Notes under the pieces: model-generated | Database searches by the model: none | What the model saw: the letters and a program-made list of their open reading frames with translations, nothing else | Told to the model about the DNA's origin: nothing | From: a virus | Direction: 5' to 3' (one strand) | Virus record (IMG/VR): IMGVR_UViG_3300013094_000007 | Location: 1-41,069 of that record | DNA: 41,069 nt | In this document: piece after piece, positions 2,881-37,236 of the stretch | Numbering within the stretch: the first letter of the stretch is position 1 | Layout: each line of letters starts with the position of its first letter | Made by a program: the position numbers and the translations under genes

Positions 2881-2902
2881 GAGAAGAAAGAGGGATACCC
2901 CT

Positions 2903-3112
2903 ATGTCTAACGAGAATTTGCCAGAAACGATGCTCCCTGGTGGCAACGATGCCCACCAGGTGACCACATCACCAGAAGAGATGGTGACCATCTCCAAAGA
3001 AGATGCCGCGCGCCTAGCACACCTTGTTTTCATCTCCCACCGCGATATCAAAAACAATCCGGTTCGGGAAGAGATGTTGCTACTTGCGGCAAAAATTGGA
3101 TTTCGTTACTAA
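2903..3112 (+). CDS. First early protein, hypothetical
   Basis: 69 residues, acidic N-terminal half (SPEEMVTISKEDAARL) and a helical C-terminus. Not recognised. It is the first gene after the early promoter. Its ribosome-binding site, 2886-2897, is exactly complementary over 12 nt to the loop of the predicted RNA at 8803-8881, so its translation is the best candidate target of that RNA. A parS-like site follows its stop codon directly. Confidence 0.8.
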   Translation: MSNENLPETMLPGGNDAHQVTTSPEEMVTISKEDAARLAHLVFISHRDIKNNPVREEMLLLAAKIGFRY

Positions 3113-3113
3113 T

Positions 3114-3129
3114 TGTTTCACGTGAAACA
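3114..3129. promoter_or_regulatory. Perfect parS (chromosomal centromere) site
   Basis: TGTTTCACGTGAAACA, a 16-bp perfect palindrome matching the conserved bacterial parS consensus bound by chromosomal ParB. It lies in the gap between the first two early genes, about 550 bp from the iterons. No ParA gene and no stand-alone HTH-type ParB gene is visible, so a host ParB would be the binder. It could also fold as an RNA hairpin, but there is no U-run. Confidence 0.8.
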
Positions 3130-3150
3130 TCAGGAGAGAGGAATAGAAAG

Positions 3151-3738: not shown

Positions 3739-3776
3739 TGCTATAGTTAGAGAGGCTAGGCGTAGAGAGCGCATAG
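3739..3776 (+). promoter_or_regulatory. Early promoter 2 with TAGAGAG leader hairpin
   Basis: Extended -10 TGC-TATAGT (3739-3747) without a good -35. Expected start about 3754. Hairpin 3756-3776: CTAgGCG, heptaloop TAGAGAG (3763-3769), CGCaTAG, with one G/A mismatch. The same heptaloop closed by CG occurs on different stems at 4819-4837 and 5866-5888. Confidence 0.6.
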
Positions 3777-3798
3777 TCATAGAGAGAGGAATAACACA

Positions 3799-4110
3799 AT
3801 GGATAAGATTACTAGCGTTCACGTGGAGGTGCGTGAGTGGCGTGATAAGACTTATGGCTCCACGTATCAGAGCGCACGGGTTAGTGCTAATGGTGAGTGG
3901 GTATTTAGTCTGGGCTTCCAATACGGATACGGAGACCAAATTGTCTACACCGCCGTTAAGGAATTGGCTAAGCGTGGTCTAGTGGTGAACGAAGAACACC
4001 GAGCTCCCTCATACTCACTACGGGAGCAGGGTATCGCTCTGTATGTCTCTAAGTCATCAGGGCTTAAGCGTGAGATGTTTAAAACATCAGAGCCGGAGGG
4101 AGGCAACTAA
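3799..4110 (+). CDS. Early protein, hypothetical
   Basis: 103 residues, mixed alpha/beta composition with aromatic strands (EWVFSLGFQYGYGDQIVY). Not recognised. First gene of a four-gene TAATG-coupled chain (3799-4752) led by the promoter and hairpin at 3739-3776. Ribosome-binding site GAGAGAGGAATA. Confidence 0.8.
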   Translation: MDKITSVHVEVREWRDKTYGSTYQSARVSANGEWVFSLGFQYGYGDQIVYTAVKELAKRGLVVNEEHRAPSYSLREQGIALYVSKSSGLKREMFKTSEPEGGN

Positions 4111-4780: not shown

Positions 4781-4839
4781 TTGACAACGCATTACCTATA
4801 GAATACAGTTAATACTGTTAGTCGTAGAGAGCGACTAGC
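4781..4839 (+). promoter_or_regulatory. Early promoter 3 with operator and TAGAGAG leader hairpin
   Basis: TTGACA (4781-4786), 17-bp spacer, TACAGT (4804-4809), the best sigma-70-type promoter in the window. The inverted repeat ACAGT-TAAT-ACTGT (4805-4818) overlaps the -10 and start site, as an operator would. The transcript would begin near 4816 with hairpin GTTAGTCG-TAGAGAG-CGACTAGC (4817-4839), an 8-bp stem with one G-U pair. Confidence 0.75.
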
Positions 4840-4864
4840 ACTAAAAAGAAAGAGGAATAGAAAA

Positions 4865-5227
4865 ATGGCAACAGAACTAAATGTGGACTTTAGCCTCACC
4901 TATATAGTTAGCGGTTATAAGGGTATCGCTTGGACAGCCCTGCGGTTTGCGGAGTCCGATAATTGCGCTCACGGGAGTGACCGAGATGAGTGGCAAGACT
5001 GCTCACGAGGACACGCCGACTGCTACCAAGCGGTGTGCGGAGCCTGCTCTAAGGTGACGTGGCGTGACTGCGACGGGCCAGACGTGCTCGTCGAAAGTGG
5101 CTACGACTACGATAGGGTCGAGTGCGTAATGGTGGGAGATAACCGCATCTTCACCTTCGACGTGAGCGACCTCACGCCGGTTAGCGACTACTGCGCTGGG
5201 TGCGGTCAGACTGGGTGCGGTCACTAA
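4865..5227 (+). CDS. Cysteine-rich early protein, hypothetical
   Basis: 120 residues with about ten cysteines in three groups (ESDNCAHG; DCSRGHADCYQAVCGACSKV; YCAGCGQTGCGH), typical of one or two zinc sites. Ribosome-binding site GAAAGAGGAATA, one base from a perfect match to the anti-RBS loop of the RNA at 8803-8881. First gene behind promoter 3. Not recognised. Confidence 0.8.
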   Translation: MATELNVDFSLTYIVSGYKGIAWTALRFAESDNCAHGSDRDEWQDCSRGHADCYQAVCGACSKVTWRDCDGPDVLVESGYDYDRVECVMVGDNRIFTFDVSDLTPVSDYCAGCGQTGCGH

Positions 5228-5262
5228 TGGCATACGCAATTAAGAAAGCGACTAGCACTAAA
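5227..5262 (+). pseudogene. Remnant of a YTI/DLIG-family gene start
   Basis: ATG 5227 overlaps the upstream stop and encodes MAYAIKKA, close to MAYTIKRA of the gene at 4543. The homology then breaks into a copy of the leader found before 4865: GCGACTAGCACTAAAA recurs at 4831 and 5248. It looks like a deletion that fused the start of a paralogue to a leader carrying a ribosome-binding site. Reading through would give an N-terminally extended ArdA-like protein, but ATG 5281 has its own strong site. Confidence 0.55.
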
Positions 5263-5280
5263 AGAAAGAGGGATAACACA

Positions 5281-5631
5281 ATGACAACTGGACTAATTGA
5301 GGCACTTCACGAGAGAGAAAAAACAGCTTTAGATGCGCTCCTAAAATACAATGAAAGTATGGATTACCCCGTGCCAGAGGGCGTGTTAGTAGCCTTTTAC
5401 GAAAATGATGCCTTTTACTGGGCTACCGAAGATGCCGACATCGTTATTCGAGCGTGCGAAGATGCTTATCAGGGCGAGTATTCTACCGGAGAGGAATACG
5501 CCGAGGAATACTTTAAGGCATCGTTTGATATCCCCGATTACGTGCGCTACTACATTGACTATGCGGCAGTGTGGCGGGACTTGGAAATTGACGGGTATTA
5601 CATTACTGACGGGTTTGTGTTCAATGCGTAA
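5281..5631 (+). CDS. ArdA-like antirestriction protein, C-terminal domain only
   Basis: 116 residues. The second half carries the ArdA signature: CEDAYQGEYSTGEEYAEEY, then IPDYVRYYIDYAAVWRDLE and a DGYYITDGFVF ending. ArdA proteins mimic bent B-DNA and block type I restriction-modification enzymes; full-length members have about 165 residues in three domains. Here only the last domain plus an unrelated N-terminal helix is present. The protein is very acidic, as expected of a DNA mimic. Its ribosome-binding site 5264-5275 is a perfect match to the loop of the RNA at 8803-8881. Confidence 0.75.
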   Translation: MTTGLIEALHEREKTALDALLKYNESMDYPVPEGVLVAFYENDAFYWATEDADIVIRACEDAYQGEYSTGEEYAEEYFKASFDIPDYVRYYIDYAAVWRDLEIDGYYITDGFVFNA

Positions 5632-5803
5632 TACGATTAACGACTACCTCATCGCCGTGTTGTGTGTGGTGAGCTTCTTCATCGCCTACTACGCCGCCCG
5701 CCTTGTGCCGGAGAGCCACCCTATCTGGGAGATATTCGTATTCCTGATGACACCTATCGTCTTAATCAATATCGTTCTGAAGGTCGGAGGTATGCGTAAG
5801 TAA
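5624..5803 (+). CDS. Small two-helix membrane protein
   Basis: 59 residues from ATG 5624, overlapping the upstream stop by 8 nt. Hydrophobic segments at about residues 9-25 and 34-51 separated by a short polar turn (RLVPESHPIW). Unknown function; early membrane proteins of phages can act in superinfection exclusion. Confidence 0.75.
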   Translation: MRNTINDYLIAVLCVVSFFIAYYAARLVPESHPIWEIFVFLMTPIVLINIVLKVGGMRK

Positions 5804-5828
5804 GATAGCGACTATCACTCAATTTAAT

Positions 5829-5888
5829 TTGCTTTACCTGTAGTGCCGTATTAATTTAACTAACTGTCAGCCGTAGAGAGCGACTGAC
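5829..5888 (+). promoter_or_regulatory. Early promoter 4 with TAGAGAG leader hairpin
   Basis: TTGCTT (5829-5834), 17-bp spacer, TAATTT (5852-5857). Expected start about 5864, two bases before hairpin GTCAGcCG (5866-5873), heptaloop TAGAGAG (5874-5880), CGaCTGAC (5881-5888), with a single C/A mismatch. Confidence 0.65.
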
Positions 5889-8540: not shown

Positions 8541-8620
8541 TGAACGAGGAAGAAACACCGGAGTTCTTGGAGTTGTATTACCGCTTAGCTGACGTTCTAG
8601 CGGGCGAGGGGTGCGACTAG
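8540..8620 (+). CDS. 26-residue acidic peptide
   Basis: Starts ATG 8540 in a TAATG overlap; a single acidic helix ending AGEGCD. Supported only by position and coupling. Confidence 0.5.
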   Translation: MNEEETPEFLELYYRLADVLAGEGCD

Positions 8621-8784
8621 CCCTGTATGCGCTATCTGTTGTCCTAGCGCACTATGTTGTAAGGTTTGTGGTTATACACTTCGGTAGCCACTTCACACCA
8701 GGCAACCATATTGCGTTCATCACGTTTATAGTGGTGGTAGGGCTGTGCGTATTTCTTATGAATATGTTTGCCAACAGACGATAG
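8611..8784 (+). CDS. Small two-helix membrane protein, last early gene
   Basis: 57 residues from GTG 8611, preceded by GCGAGGG inside the previous gene. Two hydrophobic helices (about 3-23 and 33-51) joined by a polar loop (HFGSHFTPGN) and a basic C-terminus. Holin- or exclusion-like shape. Its 3' end contains the -35 box of the RNA promoter at 8768. Confidence 0.65.
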   Translation: MRLALYALSVVLAHYVVRFVVIHFGSHFTPGNHIAFITFIVVVGLCVFLMNMFANRR

Positions 8785-8796
8785 TAGTGCTATAAT
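8768..8796 (+). promoter_or_regulatory. Promoter of the 79-nt RNA
   Basis: TTGCCA (8768-8773), exactly 17 bp, TATAAT (8791-8796). The expected start is G8803, the first base of the closing stem of the RNA. One of the two closest matches to consensus in the window. Confidence 0.8.
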
Positions 8797-8802
8797 AAGT
8801 TT

Positions 8803-8881
8803 GCTGGTTCGGGGGTAGGACTTCTCCACCTGTAATGAACGACTTGTATCCCTCTTTCCAAGTGCGTTCCCCCCGACCAGC
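8803..8881 (+). ncRNA. Predicted anti-RBS small RNA
   Basis: The 5' end GCTGGTtCGGG (8803-8813) pairs with CCCGACCAGC at the 3' end (8872-8881), closing a three-way junction. Arm 1 is GGTaGGA-CTTC-TCCACC (8814-8830). Arm 2 is ACTTG (8842-8846), 12-nt loop TATCCCTCTTTC (8847-8858), CAAGT (8859-8863). The whole loop is the exact reverse complement of GAAAGAGGGATA, the ribosome-binding site of the genes at 2903 and 5281, and near-complementary to those of 4865 and others. After the stem comes pyrimidine-rich CCCCTACTTCTTTCTC, a plausible but imperfect terminator. Role inferred: base-pairs with early mRNAs and blocks their translation. Alternative: a transcript end of the early operon with no action in trans. 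Confidence 0.65.
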
Positions 8882-8883
8882 CC

Positions 8884-9258
8884 CTACTTCTTTCTCTTAC
8901 GATAGCGAGCCACACGCACCTTAGAGGCAGCGTTGTAGGCATCTACACAGGGCTGGCAAAACTCGTGGTTGGGGTCTTTAAGCTTGCGCCTACGATGCCA
9001 AGCGTGACCGCTCTCTGTGCCGTGTTCGGGAGACTTCCGGTTCGGTGGCTCGTAGCCCAGAGACACAGCTACGATGCGTAATTCCTGATACGACAAACCG
9101 CCCCACACTCCCCACGCTTCCTGATGTTCGAGCGCCCAGTGTAGGCAATCAGTTTTAATGGGGCAGGTAGCGCAGATTTCGCTTGCCTGATGTGTGAGGC
9201 GGTCATCGAAGAAGAGGTCAGTCTGCCCGATACATCGAGCTTCAGACCAATTTGTCAT
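8884..9258 (-). CDS. WhiB-family transcription factor with C-terminal zinc-finger-like module
   Basis: 124 residues. WhiB core: Cys9, Cys29, Cys32 and Cys38 to hold a [4Fe-4S] cluster, then the G-V-W-G-G turn at 50-54. WhiB proteins are actinobacterial and bind the housekeeping sigma factor to redirect RNA polymerase; phage WhiBs can also repress host genes. The extra tail has HGTESGHAWHRRRK (79-92), FCQPC (100-104) and a basic end, resembling the HGT/GY-H-x-C-x-x-C module that follows WhiB domains in some actinophages and probably binds DNA or zinc. Last gene of the minus-strand middle operon, 4 nt after ssb. Confidence 0.88.
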   Translation of the reverse strand: MTNWSEARCIGQTDLFFDDRLTHQASEICATCPIKTDCLHWALEHQEAWGVWGGLSYQELRIVAVSLGYEPPNRKSPEHGTESGHAWHRRRKLKDPNHEFCQPCVDAYNAASKVRVARYRKRKK

Positions 9259-30690: not shown

Positions 30691-33600
30691 TTATCCTTGC
30701 GAGTTGAACGAGTTTTTGGTTGGGAATTCAGACATGATTTTTAGGACGTTCGAGATGCTGGCGTTGTTGAGGTCATCAGCGTTTGCCTTCAGCACCTGCG
30801 TGTATTCGCTGTTGTACACCGCTGTGTTACTCATCTGCATAATCGTTGGCAAGGCGTTCTTGTAGTAGGTGTACGCACCAACCAAAGTGCTAACCTGCGC
30901 TTGCGTTAACAGCCCCTTGCTGACAACTTCTTTCTGCATGCTGGTTGACGAAACAAACTTTTCAAGGTCGTTCATTACGGCAATCTTGCGAGGCAGGGCG
31001 GTAGAGCCAAACGGACTGCCGTTGGTCAACCACGTTGGGTTGTAGTTGTCACCAAACGCTTCTGCTTCTTTCTTAAGCGCCTGCGAACCGGCGTAGTCAA
31101 TGGTGCTGGTTGTGATGTCGCCAGTCCACTTACCGCCGTACATGGGGTTGGAGTAGTACGCAGGGGCAAGCAGGTTGTAGTAAATGTTGTCGCCCATTGA
31201 CGTAAGCACAGCGTCCATGTATTCCTTTGGCGTGTCCGTAGAGCGCAATCCCAAAGAAATCTGCGACTGATGCGCTGGGGCAATCCATGAGCCATTGGAA
31301 GGAATAAGGTCGGCGGCGAGGAACGGGATGCCATCCTTGCTCAAAAGGTTAGGTGCTTTTTGTGCCCAGCTCATGTATGCCTGGTTCTGTGGAAAAGCGC
31401 CAAAAGGTGTCTGTGACGTTGATACCGTGTCAAGCGCACCCATTGGGTCCTTAATGGCAAACTCTTGGTACGCGGCGTTCAGCGGGATTTGGCTACCGTC
31501 TGGCAACTTCTGCTGCATAATGGCGTTCAGTTGTGCGGAACTACCAAATTTTTCGATAAGCGACGTTGGCACCGGCAAAGCAAAACTTGTAAGAATCTTA
31601 CCAACGAACAAAGCCTGAGCCGCCGTGTTTGCTTGGTCTAAGAACTGCTGACGATTGGCGATACCTTGTTCGCTATTCTTGTCAAAGTTGTAAGACATCT
31701 GCATTTCAGAGGTGCCCACAGCCCAATTAGTCAACTGGTCGCCACTAAGCTTGTAAGGATTTTCCTTCATGTTTTGCTTAATAAGGTCGGTAATCATGCT
31801 GTCAAACATGCTGTGCATCGCCTTGACCTTAAGCGCCACAATGGTTCCTGCTTCTGGGTCCATGCCAGCACGCTTAGCAATTTCATACAGACCAAGCGTT
31901 TCGGCATTGCGATACGTTGATGATGGGTCGAGGTCGCTCCAGATGCCTTCTTGTGAACCAATAGGTCCAAGGACATGAGCCATAAGTCCTTGGTAGAACG
32001 GCACGTTGGCCATACCCGCGGATGACAAGAACTTCATTGGAATACTGACAAGGGCGCTCGCGCCTGGGTTAAGTGCGTTCTCCAACATTGGCCAACCTGT
32101 GCGGTCGCCCGTGAGGAACACCGAGTTAAGAGAACTGATGTTTGCGCTAAGGCCAAAGTTAATTCCCTTAGTCGATGGCCCGCCAGTAAGGATGTCAGTC
32201 AAGAAATTACCCAGCCACTCCGAGTGAGGGATAGTCAAAATAGTCTGACCGTTTTGGCTGTGCGTTTGGAAATAGTTAGTAGCCGCCAAGTTAACCTTGA
32301 GGTACTGCATAAACGCCTGTGGGTTTTCTTCAAGTAGACGGAACGCACGCTTGTACGCCTGGTTTTTAGCAAACCAGAACGGGGAGTAAATGCGAGAGTT
32401 GCGCTCAAAGGCGGCTCGGTCCATCGGGTTGTGGATGAACTTGGTCATCTTTTGCAATGAAGAATTCATCGCCTGAATTTCAGCTTGGTCTTGGCTTACT
32501 ACGCCCGCAATAATACGGGGACGCAATTCTTCCATTGCCAAGTGGTATTCCAACATGTAAATAGGCTCACGGCTAATCCATGAAACAAGTCGGCCAAAGG
32601 TTTTGTCAAGAACTGCGTTTGTGACACTACCGCGTAGTTTCATCAACTTGTTAAAGTTGCTCACACCGTCTTGCCACGAGAACTGAACTCGCTGATGCGT
32701 AATCAAGTTCTTGGGAGCGCCATCAAGTTTGCCGTATTCCTTTGCCAAATCAGGTGCGCTCTTAATGTTGCCCGACAATGCCTGGTCAATGAAACTTGGG
32801 TGGAAAACAAATTCGCCGTTGTCCTTAAGGCCACCCACAATGTTCATTACGTTGTAGGCACTTGACTTGGACAAGTCCTTCAAGGGCACACCTGTGCTGA
32901 TGCTGGGGTTAGACAGAACCATCTTAGACGCAGGAAATTGGCTAAGTTCTGAGTCGCTCAGAAGCAGTTTGCGGCTAAAGTCCAATTCGGTAAGTTCGCT
33001 AAGCAACTTTTCAAACTCTGCGTTATTACCCACAACTGGGCCGTTCTTCTCAACCCAATCCTTAATGTCGCGCAAGATGACATTAAGCTTCTGGTCCATG
33101 TGAGCCAGACGCAAGTTCTGTTGCAAAGCCGTGACAATTTCCTTGCGCTCGGCAAACTTGAACTTCGACGTTGGGATGCCCTTTTTTGAAACAGTCATGC
33201 TTCCAGCATCGTCAACGCCACTGGTGCGACTCCTAACGCCCTTCTTGACAGAGTTGCCATCAAGGGCTTTTGAAGCACCGTGGCCCACGTCAGGGATAGC
33301 GCCATTGGTGACTGACAGCAAGTTAACGAAGTCATCAAGCATGCGGTAGAACTGGTCGCCCGTCATGGTCTTAAGAATTCCACGCTGAGTACCAGTGATT
33401 GCACCGCTAAGGAAGTCGCCAGGGTGGTGTAATACTTCAGCCGTGTCAAGAACAAAACGCTTAATAACGCTTGCCTCTGAAACCTTCATAGTTGCGCGTG
33501 CGCCACTAGAAGCCATGTTTACAATGTTATTTTCAGATGGAAGTTCTGGAGCCTTTACACCTTCACCAAGCAATTCGGTCGGCTTCATTTGGCCAGGAAC

Positions 33601-36600
33601 ATAACCAAAATCGTCGGGTATGATTCGCTCCATACCGCCTTCAACCACGCGAGGCAGAAACCCACCTCTGCCGCCTTCTATCCCGCTATTACGAACAACG
33701 AGGACGGGAACGCTTTTCAAACCTAATTGCTCGGCGGCGATAAGACGATGATTTCCTTCACCAAGACGTGCCAATCCGTTTTTGGGATTGTACTCTATTT
33801 GCAATTCTGTTTTGAAACCGTTTTCCTTGATGTCTTGCTTCAATTCATCAATGTATTTTTGAGCTGCTCCTTCGCTTCTTAATTGAGCGTGTCCGCCAAG
33901 TCGGTCATACTCACGGTATTTAGCAACCTCATTAATGTCAATCCATTCAGTTCTTTCATCACGCGCACGCAAAGCGTTTTCAGACTTGCGACGAATATAG
34001 TTCGTAAGCCCTTCTGGCGTTTCAGAAGCCATGTTTGCAGAACTACCACGGCTGACAACGCCACCCTTTTCAGGCGCCAAGCCAACATGTTCAACCTTGC
34101 CATCCGGGTGCAAAATTGCTGCTTCCCACTCAGGGTCCTTGCCAGCAGGTCCTAGGTCAATAGTGGCCTCTGCCAATGGTCGGATGTTCTGCATGCGCTT
34201 AGCAATAGAAACGCCCAGGCGTGACTCAATAAGAGCAAGCGGGTCAAAGCGCAAAATGTTGGGGATTGCTTCAGCGCCAGCAATACGCCAAACGTAGCCA
34301 CCAGTTGAAAGCATGGCAGGGACAAAGTAATCAGTTACAAGTCGATTAATGTTGTCCACGACAAGATTGCCACGGTTCAAGTATGAGGTGTAGTCAATTT
34401 GCTTGCGTAGGAACTTGGCAGCCAGTCGGTCACGTTCTTGGATTTGCTTGTTTAGACCAGACTTAATTGCCTTGCGAACCTCGGCGGTAAGTTGTTGCTT
34501 CTCGTCGGTGTGAACAGCAAGTTGTTCGACCCACTCGCGGAAGTCGGCCATTTTGACGCTGGGGTCGCGCAACTTATTAAGCAGTTGCCTTTCTGCATCG
34601 GCAAGTGCTTGAACACGGCCCTCTTGCGTAGCAACGGCTTTGGCGTCTGCGGTAGCGGTAGCCTTGAGTGTTGCCAACTCGCTTTGAGCAAGGTCTGATT
34701 CCTGGAAAATCTTTTGTGCTGTTACCACAAACTTTTCAGTGACGTTAAGACCGCCTTGGGTCCGACCAGCTGCGATAAGGTCCTTGACAGCACGCACAGC
34801 ATTGTTGTATCCGTAGGTGCGCTCAGCACCGTGCATGGCCGAAGTGTAGGCACCGCTTCGACGTGTGGTAATTTTATCTAGGTCTGCGGTCAAGCCCTCA
34901 AGGGTGGCGCTCTTGTATTCGGCAGCGGCCAACATTGCGGCTTGGTCTAGGTATCGCAAACGCTGGCCAGACTCAATGATTGATGAATCAAGACCCCTAA
35001 GTACCGCTGACATTTTCTGGGTCAAACCAATAAGTTGCCGTGGGTCAATAAAGTTTGCCTGCGATACGTGCAAGTCACCGTGGCCAAAGGTGCCGCCGAT
35101 AGAGCGGTCGCCAGGTGCGTTGAACGTAGAGTACAACTGCCCCATGTCACCGTTTACATACAAACCACCGTCGCCACCACCGCCACCTGCGTCGTACAGA
35201 TTTACAACGGCATCATTAATGGTTTGTAGAAATTCTGCGGCTACAGCATCGTGCGTCGTTTTGGGGACTGCTGCTGCTGCTGCTTGGTCCACCATGCGAC
35301 CTGTCAGGTTAAACAACGTGTGCATGAAGTCCTGTGGGTCTGGAGTTGAATCAAGGATTTCACCAATCTTTTCAACTTCAGCGCGGCTTACGGTGCCGGT
35401 AGCCAACAGCATGTTCTGCAACGCAGGGATTGCCTCTTTGCGTCCAGCCTTAAAAGTCGCGCTTTTAACGTCTGGAATAATCCCTTTCTCAACCGCATCT
35501 TCTTGGTACCAAGGTGCGGATACAAACTTCTTGCCAGCCCAGCGACGTGCCCAAGCAAAACTACGCTTTTCTAACGTAGAAGTTGCTTCGTCAACGCTCT
35601 TAGCACTTGCGTCAACGCCTTCCTTGTCAAGCGTTTCTACAGCCTTTTCAAACGACATGCCACTACGCAAAGCACGACCAATGGTGCGCCAAATCTTCAT
35701 AGATGGCATAACGCCACGAGTGATGTAGTTGGAGTCGGCCAACTTAGCAAAAACTTCAACCACTTGCTCAGGCGTTTTGGCCCTAGCAACCTCTTGAACA
35801 ATCTTGTCCATTTCTGCGGGCGTAAGACCACTAAGAACTTTATTCAAAGCCTTACGAACCGCTGGTGCCTTTGAGTCGGCAAGATATTTTAGGAAGCGTG
35901 CGCTACGTGGAGTAGTGCCAGCGACACGGAAAACGTCAGCGCCAGTCTCAACACCCAGGCCCTTCCAAGCTCCGCTGAACAAACCCTTAGCGCCAAGTGC
36001 GCTGTTTTCGACTTCTTTAGCGTGTGCAATAAAACCAATGGGGTCGCCCGCCATTGCCGTTGTAGCGTCAATAGCACCGGAGATGAGTCCGTTCTGCTTT
36101 ACGCCGAGCGCCTCAAGCAAACCTTGACCAGAACTGGTGTGAACCAAAGTACGACCAAACTTGTCTACTGGGTTTCCACCCTGCGTAAGATTCCAAAGCT
36201 GGCGGGTTTCTGGATTTGCTTGCGCCTGAATACCCGTAAGAACATACGTCGCAAATGGCTTAGGGCCAAAATTGATTTTAAGCAAAGTTTTCAATGCGGC
36301 CAAAGGTACGCCGGGCAAACGGCCAGCGGCTTCTCCAACCCTTACGCCCGCCCGCTTTGCTCCCGATAAACCGCTTAGGCGTTCTTCGTCAGCTGCTTTT
36401 GCGGCAGCGGTTGCTTCCTCCCTTGCCGTTTCACGAGCCTTCGCTGCTTTGGCGACAAGGTTGCGAGAAACATCTTCTGCGGTGCCAAGGCCCGAATTAA
36501 TGCGTGCTTCGGTTGAAGCGATTACATCATCCGAAGTTGCAGCCTTTGGAATAAGTCCGGCCTCATCGCCCGCCATTGCCGCAATAAAATTTGGCAAAAT

Positions 36601-37236
36601 ATTTGCTGCGGCGGCTGCCATGCCATGTCGTGCGGCGTAACTGTCGTAATAAGCCAACAAGTTTTGTATTGGCCGCAGGTCAAAATTGTTTGATGGCATT
36701 GGCGTAATGCCATTGGCAAGATTATTGAGCGTAGTAAGTGCATCTGAAACATTATGGCCAGATGCCAATTCAGCCCCAGTTATTACTGTGCGATTAGTTG
36801 CGTTAAGAAGTCCTCCGGCAAGGGCACCCGTACCCTCCACAAAACCGCCAACAATGTCGCCAAAACCAATGCGTTCAATTGGATTTTTACTTTGACGTAC
36901 TGTTTGGATACCTTGTTCAACTTTTGTTGGAAAACTGTTAAGCCAAGCCGCGGTATCGTCATACGCGTTTACAACGCTCCCCCACCAACCGCGTCCATTG
37001 CTAACGTGGTCTGCGTGTTGAGATACAACATCTTGAACACCACTAGAGATAGAGGCAAAGCGCGATAGGGAGCCCAACGCCGGTCCATCAATACCGTCCA
37101 ACGAAGCAAGCGTTTGAACCGCAGTTGGGTCAGACTTAAGGTTAGGGTTAGCTTTAATTAAGTCTGCGACTTTATTTTCGTATGGGTTTGGGGGCGTAAA
37201 AAATGCCTCGCTAGTTGGTGAAGTCTGGTCAGACAT
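30691..37236 (-). CDS. Giant internal virion protein with an inserted ParB/Srx-fold domain
   Basis: 2181 residues, 16% of the genome. Mostly alpha-helical with Ala-rich stretches, as in podoviral ejection proteins that form a channel for DNA entry. Residues about 1098-1190 form a ParB/sulfiredoxin-like domain: EWIDINEVAKYREYDR, then IKENGFKTELQIEYNP and the signature LGEGNHRLIAAEQLGLKSVPV. This domain lies within a 172-codon block bounded by 13-bp direct repeats. No lytic transglycosylase motif is seen. A C-terminal RIYSPFWFAKNQAYKRAFRL region probably contacts membrane or portal. It resembles phage polyvalent proteins, which carry effector domains into the host with the DNA. Start overlaps the upstream stop as TAATG. 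Confidence 0.75.
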   Translation of the reverse strand: MSDQTSPTSEAFFTPPNPYENKVADLIKANPNLKSDPTAVQTLASLDGIDGPALGSLSRFASISSGVQDVVSQHADHVSNGRGWWGSVVNAYDDTAAWLNSFPTKVEQGIQTVRQSKNPIERIGFGDIVGGFVEGTGALAGGLLNATNRTVITGAELASGHNVSDALTTLNNLANGITPMPSNNFDLRPIQNLLAYYDSYAARHGMAAAAANILPNFIAAMAGDEAGLIPKAATSDDVIASTEARINSGLGTAEDVSRNLVAKAAKARETAREEATAAAKAADEERLSGLSGAKRAGVRVGEAAGRLPGVPLAALKTLLKINFGPKPFATYVLTGIQAQANPETRQLWNLTQGGNPVDKFGRTLVHTSSGQGLLEALGVKQNGLISGAIDATTAMAGDPIGFIAHAKEVENSALGAKGLFSGAWKGLGVETGADVFRVAGTTPRSARFLKYLADSKAPAVRKALNKVLSGLTPAEMDKIVQEVARAKTPEQVVEVFAKLADSNYITRGVMPSMKIWRTIGRALRSGMSFEKAVETLDKEGVDASAKSVDEATSTLEKRSFAWARRWAGKKFVSAPWYQEDAVEKGIIPDVKSATFKAGRKEAIPALQNMLLATGTVSRAEVEKIGEILDSTPDPQDFMHTLFNLTGRMVDQAAAAAVPKTTHDAVAAEFLQTINDAVVNLYDAGGGGGDGGLYVNGDMGQLYSTFNAPGDRSIGGTFGHGDLHVSQANFIDPRQLIGLTQKMSAVLRGLDSSIIESGQRLRYLDQAAMLAAAEYKSATLEGLTADLDKITTRRSGAYTSAMHGAERTYGYNNAVRAVKDLIAAGRTQGGLNVTEKFVVTAQKIFQESDLAQSELATLKATATADAKAVATQEGRVQALADAERQLLNKLRDPSVKMADFREWVEQLAVHTDEKQQLTAEVRKAIKSGLNKQIQERDRLAAKFLRKQIDYTSYLNRGNLVVDNINRLVTDYFVPAMLSTGGYVWRIAGAEAIPNILRFDPLALIESRLGVSIAKRMQNIRPLAEATIDLGPAGKDPEWEAAILHPDGKVEHVGLAPEKGGVVSRGSSANMASETPEGLTNYIRRKSENALRARDERTEWIDINEVAKYREYDRLGGHAQLRSEGAAQKYIDELKQDIKENGFKTELQIEYNPKNGLARLGEGNHRLIAAEQLGLKSVPVLVVRNSGIEGGRGGFLPRVVEGGMERIIPDDFGYVPGQMKPTELLGEGVKAPELPSENNIVNMASSGARATMKVSEASVIKRFVLDTAEVLHHPGDFLSGAITGTQRGILKTMTGDQFYRMLDDFVNLLSVTNGAIPDVGHGASKALDGNSVKKGVRSRTSGVDDAGSMTVSKKGIPTSKFKFAERKEIVTALQQNLRLAHMDQKLNVILRDIKDWVEKNGPVVGNNAEFEKLLSELTELDFSRKLLLSDSELSQFPASKMVLSNPSISTGVPLKDLSKSSAYNVMNIVGGLKDNGEFVFHPSFIDQALSGNIKSAPDLAKEYGKLDGAPKNLITHQRVQFSWQDGVSNFNKLMKLRGSVTNAVLDKTFGRLVSWISREPIYMLEYHLAMEELRPRIIAGVVSQDQAEIQAMNSSLQKMTKFIHNPMDRAAFERNSRIYSPFWFAKNQAYKRAFRLLEENPQAFMQYLKVNLAATNYFQTHSQNGQTILTIPHSEWLGNFLTDILTGGPSTKGINFGLSANISSLNSVFLTGDRTGWPMLENALNPGASALVSIPMKFLSSAGMANVPFYQGLMAHVLGPIGSQEGIWSDLDPSSTYRNAETLGLYEIAKRAGMDPEAGTIVALKVKAMHSMFDSMITDLIKQNMKENPYKLSGDQLTNWAVGTSEMQMSYNFDKNSEQGIANRQQFLDQANTAAQALFVGKILTSFALPVPTSLIEKFGSSAQLNAIMQQKLPDGSQIPLNAAYQEFAIKDPMGALDTVSTSQTPFGAFPQNQAYMSWAQKAPNLLSKDGIPFLAADLIPSNGSWIAPAHQSQISLGLRSTDTPKEYMDAVLTSMGDNIYYNLLAPAYYSNPMYGGKWTGDITTSTIDYAGSQALKKEAEAFGDNYNPTWLTNGSPFGSTALPRKIAVMNDLEKFVSSTSMQKEVVSKGLLTQAQVSTLVGAYTYYKNALPTIMQMSNTAVYNSEYTQVLKANADDLNNASISNVLKIMSEFPTKNSFNSQG
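33508..34036. repeat. 13-bp direct repeats bounding the ParB-domain block
   Basis: AGAAGCCATGTTT occurs at 33508-33520 and 34024-34036. Both encode N-M-A-S in the same frame. One copy plus the DNA between them is 516 bp (172 codons); removing it would join SSANMAS to SGARATMKVSEAS without a frame change. Parts of the block, such as 33781-33960, are about 38-45% G+C, lower than the surrounding gene. Confidence 0.7.

Follow-up and report, generated by a model that had tools for sequence, protein, structure and literature searches.

The c4 RNA of phages P1 and P7 (RF01695) contains complementary stretches, likely in loops, that pair around the ribosome-binding site (RBS) of ant and block its translation (PMC12197685); it has been described in Proteobacteria and in phages of that group (PMC2864571). 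The staphylococcal RNAIII and Rsa RNAs use C-rich (UCCC) hairpin loops to pair with the Shine-Dalgarno (SD) sequences of several mRNAs (PMC3861533). Lambda PreS, P22 sar and lambda OOP are further phage small RNAs that act on mRNAs, PreS on that of host dnaN (PMC12197685). Mycobacteriophages and the Rhodococcus phage WC1 produce highly expressed non-coding RNAs whose function is unknown (PMC10986025).

We analyzed the full 41,069 bases of the virus record IMGVR_UViG_3300013094_000007, called the window here. An earlier note on this DNA had predicted a small RNA with a hairpin loop antisense to early RBSs. The RNAs of mycobacteriophages and WC1 come from actinobacterial phages, but they sit mainly at genome ends, and a search of the phage collection gave no sequence match between them and the RNA described here. 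No description of this RNA was found in open-access papers on such phage RNAs.

Fold, promoter and distribution of the RNA

Segment 8803-8881 of the window folds at -32.6 kcal/mol (z = -4.3), and none of 200 shuffled sequences was equally stable. The earlier note had described a 79-nt RNA with its ends joined by a stem of 10-12 bp and a 12-nt loop on a 5-bp stem. The terminal stem, P1, was found to have 12 pairs with a single bulged U, and the loop stem was confirmed, with 5 further pairs and a one-base bulge beneath it. The promoter that the note had proposed, with transcription starting at G8803, was also found in place, and P1 begins at that base. TTGCCA (8768-8773) and TATAAT (8791-8796) are separated by a spacer of 17 nt and score 11/12 against the consensus with TG before the -10; among 13 sigma70-like sites identified in the first 16 kb, this one ranks highest. 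The extended -10 (TGN-TAnnnT) lies exactly 6 nt ahead of the first paired base in 11/11 distinct RNAs of the family described below. Just upstream of the RNA promoter, several relatives (e.g. L019, L021, L028 and L031) have a GC hairpin followed by a T-run, so that the early transcript would stop before the RNA start. As judged from these sequences, 8803-8881 is presumably transcribed. The 3' end of the RNA core is predicted at 8881; there was no clear intrinsic terminator 3' of P1 in the window, and the length of the RNA is therefore uncertain.

Table 1. Coordinates in the window of the predicted RNA, its parts, its putative target sites and its neighboring gene.
Feature	Position	Strand	Basis or detail
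RNA promoter TTGCCA-17-TATAAT with TG extension (predicted)	8768-8796	+	consensus and conservation
Conserved structured small RNA, UAAUGA invariant	8803-8881	+	fold, alignment, covariance models R1 and R2
P1, 5' strand	8803-8815	+	pairs with 8870-8881, one U bulged
P2 hairpin, AGG-loop-CCU	8817-8831	+	loop untied to early RBSs (control)
Linker GUAAU	8832-8836	+	with the next GA gives the (almost) invariant GUAAUGA
P3 hairpin	8837-8869	+	GAACG/CGUUC lower stem, one-base 3' bulge, 5-bp upper stem, antisense loop
Antisense loop UAUCCCUCUUUC	8847-8858	+	12 nt
P1, 3' strand, predicted end of RNA core	8870-8881	+	
RBS of first early gene (2903-3112), putative target	2886-2897	+	12-nt exact match, 13 with next base
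RBS of ArdA-like gene (5281-5631), putative target	5264-5275	+	12-nt exact match
Third target RBS, likely (gene 4865-5227)	4848-4859	+	11/12
Weaker target RBS, possible (gene 3799-4110)	3782-3793	+	10/12, duplex -11.8 kcal/mol; sister site 3134-3145
WhiB-like gene, convergent neighbor of the RNA in all members	8884-9258	-	PF02467, E 5e-16

The RNA had been placed where the operons converge, and the opposite-strand gene beside it proved to be WhiB-like; an SSB gene (PF00436) adjoins that gene on the same strand. Because the phage carries whiB, its host is probably an actinobacterium. Relatives were collected by a WhiB protein search (27 loci) and a WhiB profile (41). Covariance model R1, built from six sequences, matched 18 contigs including the window, which carry 11 distinct RNAs (E 0.005 to 9e-12), directly downstream of whiB on the opposite strand. 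The matches outside the R1 seed were L016, L017, L020, L024-L026, L028 and L030-L033, every one convergent to whiB, and they account for 5/11 distinct RNA sequences (L016, L020, L024, L028, L031). The RNA-bearing phages are uncultured and probably infect actinobacteria.

Other whiB-bearing loci (L034-L042, L049-L062 and others) differed in arrangement after whiB and gave no convincing RNA match; in the place of the RNA, the whiB strand of L034-L042 and L049-L062 has what looks like a promoter, together with GGAGGGT-type RBSs. An exact 16-mer scan of viral contigs gave about the chance number of matches, and R1 found no RNA among them. A motif scan added no contigs to those known, and scans for the SSB, the small early protein, the clamp and the portal yielded zero extra RNA-bearing contigs. 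Possible hosts were searched as well, namely 2 actinobacterial genomes that encode WhiB relatives and 297 genomes from the class to which one of the two belongs; neither set gave a match, which is weak evidence. Positions 8600-9000 had a similar stretch in none of the annotated phages of the phage collection, and no Rfam 15 family matched the window RNA at gathering score. A tRNA or tmRNA identity was dropped after ARAGORN gave no match. Two observations concern the records themselves. The window has a 2181-aa open reading frame at 30691-37236 (-), whose homologues in relatives range from 1675 to 3033 aa. IMGVR_UViG_3300025400_000015 (64,966 bases; L067 and L071) contains two differing structural gene sets (portal, capsid, giant protein) in one record, and is either a chimeric assembly or two joined phages.

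All members share a three-way-junction fold in which P1 and P3 are continuous and P2 is a side arm. P1 spans 10-14 positions and is followed by one U and then by P2 (3-4 pairs, loop of 7-10 nt); G (A in L031) and then an invariant UAAU stand between P2 and P3. The lower part of P3, with 4-6 pairs and GA/UC first, runs straight on from P1. Its one-base 3' bulge is kept except in L020, and the upper part is always five pairs long and is capped by a loop rich in pyrimidines (6-13 nt). MAFFT misaligned the stems, and a padded alignment was therefore used for the first model. In model alignment A5, which was fitted to the structure and so has some bias in favor of pairing counts, standard pairs occupied 97.5% of 284 pair cells, and double changes occurred at 20/28 pairs, a value matched by 0/500 shuffles. 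When partners in A5 were slid by 1-3 columns the pairing collapsed, one column being enough to halve it, and most raw member sequences adopted the same fold unaided. There were 15 G-U cells versus 3 A-C cells, which indicates that the plus strand is the RNA. Covariation in the aligned sequences confirms 8803-8881 as a conserved structured RNA. A resemblance between P1 and the ends of human Y RNAs was dropped, since the pairing of P1 is conserved and its sequence is not.

Early RBSs complementary to the loop

The earlier note had called the loop an exact antisense of two early RBSs, with a third matching at 11 of 12 positions; for the loop complement, GAAAGAGGGATA, all of these coordinates hold (Table 1), and the gene that it had named ArdA-like does encode such a product (PF07275, E 2.7e-8). 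The first early gene encodes 69 aa without a Pfam match. The window has 12 sites with at most 2 mismatches to the loop complement versus 1.97 expected (sd 1.29), and 0/100 shuffles reached 12. Net pairing energy was taken as the duplex energy plus the cost of opening the mRNA. The duplex and net values were -18.3 and -12.3 kcal/mol for the RBS at 2886 and -18.6 and -17.1 kcal/mol for that at 5264, and the RNA lies 5.9 kb from the former of these exact target RBSs and 3.5 kb from the latter. The matched RBSs of the window are themselves interrelated through repeat families D1, D2 and D6 and so are not fully independent; the comparison between phages is what decides.

Leader segments like TAGAGAGCGACTAGCACTAAAA recur ahead of several early genes, at 3752-3774, 4814-4846, 5243-5263 and 5803-5885 (families D5 and D6), as if early gene leaders had spread via duplication. 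Directly 5' of the first target RBS, an inverted repeat (ATCAGGTGATGGACACCTGAT) at 2861-2881 may affect the accessibility of that RBS. Directly after the first early gene, 3114-3129 form a perfect 16-bp palindrome, TGTTTCACGTGAAACA, for which the chance expectation is none and whose 12-bp core was present in 0/166 fetched loci. We take it to be the chromosomal parS (ParB-binding) consensus, and it may serve to recruit ParB of the host or to help the phage DNA segregate like a plasmid.

In L019, the loop UUUAUCUUUC faces the RBS GAAAGATAA at three genes, and in L020 the loop UUUUGUCAUUUUC faces the RBS of a sliding-clamp-like gene. The RBSs of this gene (PF02767) are GAAAGAGG in L018, GAAAGATAAG in L019 and GAAAGUGACAA in L020, and with their own loops they form 8, 10 (one G-U) and 11 (one G-U) pairs, respectively. 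The loops of other phages fitted the clamp-like RBSs of L019 and L020 clearly worse; the exception was L016, where the clamp gene RBS is not best fitted by its own loop. A 55-aa gene of L016, L018 and L019 is preceded by AAGAAGGG, GAAAGAGG and GAAAGATA, each with 8 pairs to its own loop, although for L016 and L018 this score is equaled by some of the other loops. The homologue of this gene in L124 is preceded by AATAGGGAATAA; if loop tracks RBS, the loop of that phage should be near UUAUUCCCUAUU. Net energies at the best sites were -14.1 (L018), -8.3 (L019) and -7.2 kcal/mol (L020), beside -17.1 and -12.3 kcal/mol in the window. At these five RBSs the loop duplex was stronger than that with the 16S tail, the sequence of which was assumed. 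The modeled loop-RBS energies support occlusion of the RBSs.

Co-variation of loop and RBSs

Each loop was compared with the RBSs of each phage by best contiguous pairing scores (Watson-Crick 1, G-U 0.5); row and column means were removed, and the diagonal (own loop) was compared with permutations. The set comprised only 11 distinct RNAs, with short early sides in L021 and L031, and some partial match is given by default, since SDs are purine-rich and the loop is pyrimidine. A first matrix with both strands and all genes showed partial specificity, and the signal emerged on separating the strands. Loop variants resemble the RBS variants of the same phage, and early-strand RBSs are fitted better by the loop of their own phage than by loops swapped in from others (p about 0.0003; 0.00015-0.0012 for top-1 to top-5 scores). 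RBS windows from all possible starts, regardless of SD strength, gave p 0.00065 (top 1) and 0.00025 (top 2), and for the top 3 the observed value was reached in 0/20,000 permutations (p < 0.00005). There was no tracking for opposite-strand RBSs (p 0.60-0.84), inner coding windows (p 0.18-0.84), the early strand outside RBS windows (p 0.35-0.43), the antisense of the early strand (p 0.21-0.30), or the P2 loop versus early RBSs (p 0.17).

Leave-one-out p was always <= 0.0018, and the result is thus not due to any single phage; the window, L019 and L020 carry most of the signal, and p = 0.044 without them. The 6-nt loops of L028 and L031 have little specificity, and the target genes vary among phages. 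In the stretch of at most 7 kb that precedes the RNA, 13/16 exact matches of at least 8 nt to the own loop fell inside RBS windows, which make up 8-18% of positions. The earlier note had held that independent change of loop and early RBS in related phages would overturn its reading; the two were found to change together. Tracking on the early strand, beside controls with no signal, supports the trans-acting antisense reading. At the level of sequence, the fold, the promoter position and the tracking of early RBSs by the loop are shown.

Discussion

These data make it likely that the RNA acts in trans as an antisense RNA, occluding the RBSs of several early genes of the same phage. From a dedicated promoter where the early operon ends, transcription would begin at the first base of P1, and the three-way-junction scaffold would steady the molecule and display the loop. 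In several early mRNAs of that phage, the loop would pair with SD regions and so close the RBSs to 30S subunits, with less early protein as the outcome. Loop and target RBSs would then co-evolve as a matched address. The binding, repression as the direction of its effect, and the timing are what we infer. An own predicted promoter, a location apart from the putative targets and complementarity kept by co-variation, which are traits of the trans-acting antisense class, were found. We also suggest tentatively, as possible rather than probable, an early-to-middle switch in which one loop addresses a whole set of the phage's early RBSs and both drift together, giving a lineage-private translational code that could also silence the early genes of only those co-infecting phages that share it.

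A general anti-SD decoy, with a loop that imitates the tail of 16S rRNA and blocks strong SDs in general, for host shut-off and not for selected phage genes, would explain why most loops are CCCUCUUUC-like, near CCUCCUUUCU, and why many of the early SDs each match several loops. We consider it unlikely: the L019 and L020 loops are poor anti-SD sequences yet fit their own early RBSs past the SD core, and genes on the opposite strand also have SDs yet show no tracking. Because these two loops are poor anti-SDs, present-day selection seems to act on the match to the own RBSs and not on 16S rRNA mimicry. Pairing could instead activate or protect early mRNAs, by stabilization or by unmasking of the RBS. 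Anatomy and tracking would look identical, and some target RBSs cost 4.8-6.7 kcal/mol to open, so that some target leaders are structured. However, the loop covers the SD itself, and pairing over the SD normally blocks 30S binding; activation appears distinctly unlikely. Little weight also falls on action through a protein or the conserved core (UAAUGA, three-way junction), with the loop-RBS likeness as a by-product of purine SDs and pyrimidine loops. Such a likeness should be neither specific to the own phage nor limited to early-strand RBSs, and both were observed, although GUAAUGA is conserved above the loop and tracking weakens to the p value given above without the three best phages.

It is very improbable that a short coding gene begins at UAAUGA, read as overlapping stop and start codons. 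The AUG is invariant and TAATG is common at early gene starts, but the stretch between this AUG and the end of P1 varies in length among members, with remainders of 0, 1 and 2 modulo 3, the peptides diverge after a few residues, no SD is evident ahead of the AUG, and paired changes predominate; UAAUGA was rejected as a coding start on the frames and the peptides. We would hardly expect the element to be merely a bidirectional terminator or DNA hairpin between convergent operons either, since its promoter has a fixed spacing, several relatives have separate terminator-like hairpins upstream, and the two-arm fold covaries with a G-U asymmetry, whatever the convergent site and the stable GC-rich stem might suggest.

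If occlusion of early RBSs is the true reading, early shut-off is brought about by a small RNA at the translation level; shut-off of phage early genes is usually thought to be transcriptional. With loops and target sites drifting in step, the relatives form a natural series of compensatory changes, in which pairing is testable via loop and leader swaps among existing phages. The RNA also adds a structured family from uncultured phages that current Rfam does not recognize.

Like PreS, which acts on dnaN, the RNA has a clamp gene, here the sliding-clamp-like gene of the phage, among its best predicted targets in three relatives; PreS, however, is Hfq-dependent and targets a host gene, and sar pairs with ant mRNA. 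Like c4, it is a phage-encoded structured RNA with a loop complementary to the RBS of a phage mRNA. The c4 covariance model (RF01695) gave no match up to E 5 in the window and L018 RNAs. Whereas c4 regulates one gene, ant, the predicted targets here are several early genes and not ant; unlike c4, the RNA has its own predicted promoter; and c4 belongs to Proteobacteria and their phages, the present RNA to WhiB-carrying phages. RNAIII and the Rsa RNAs are host-encoded and have another fold and other targets, whereas co-variation of loop and RBS between related phages is found here. The RNA family is new, and the mechanism class is already known. By analogy, the RNA appears to resemble c4 and the C-rich loops of the RNAIII type in mechanism while belonging to neither.
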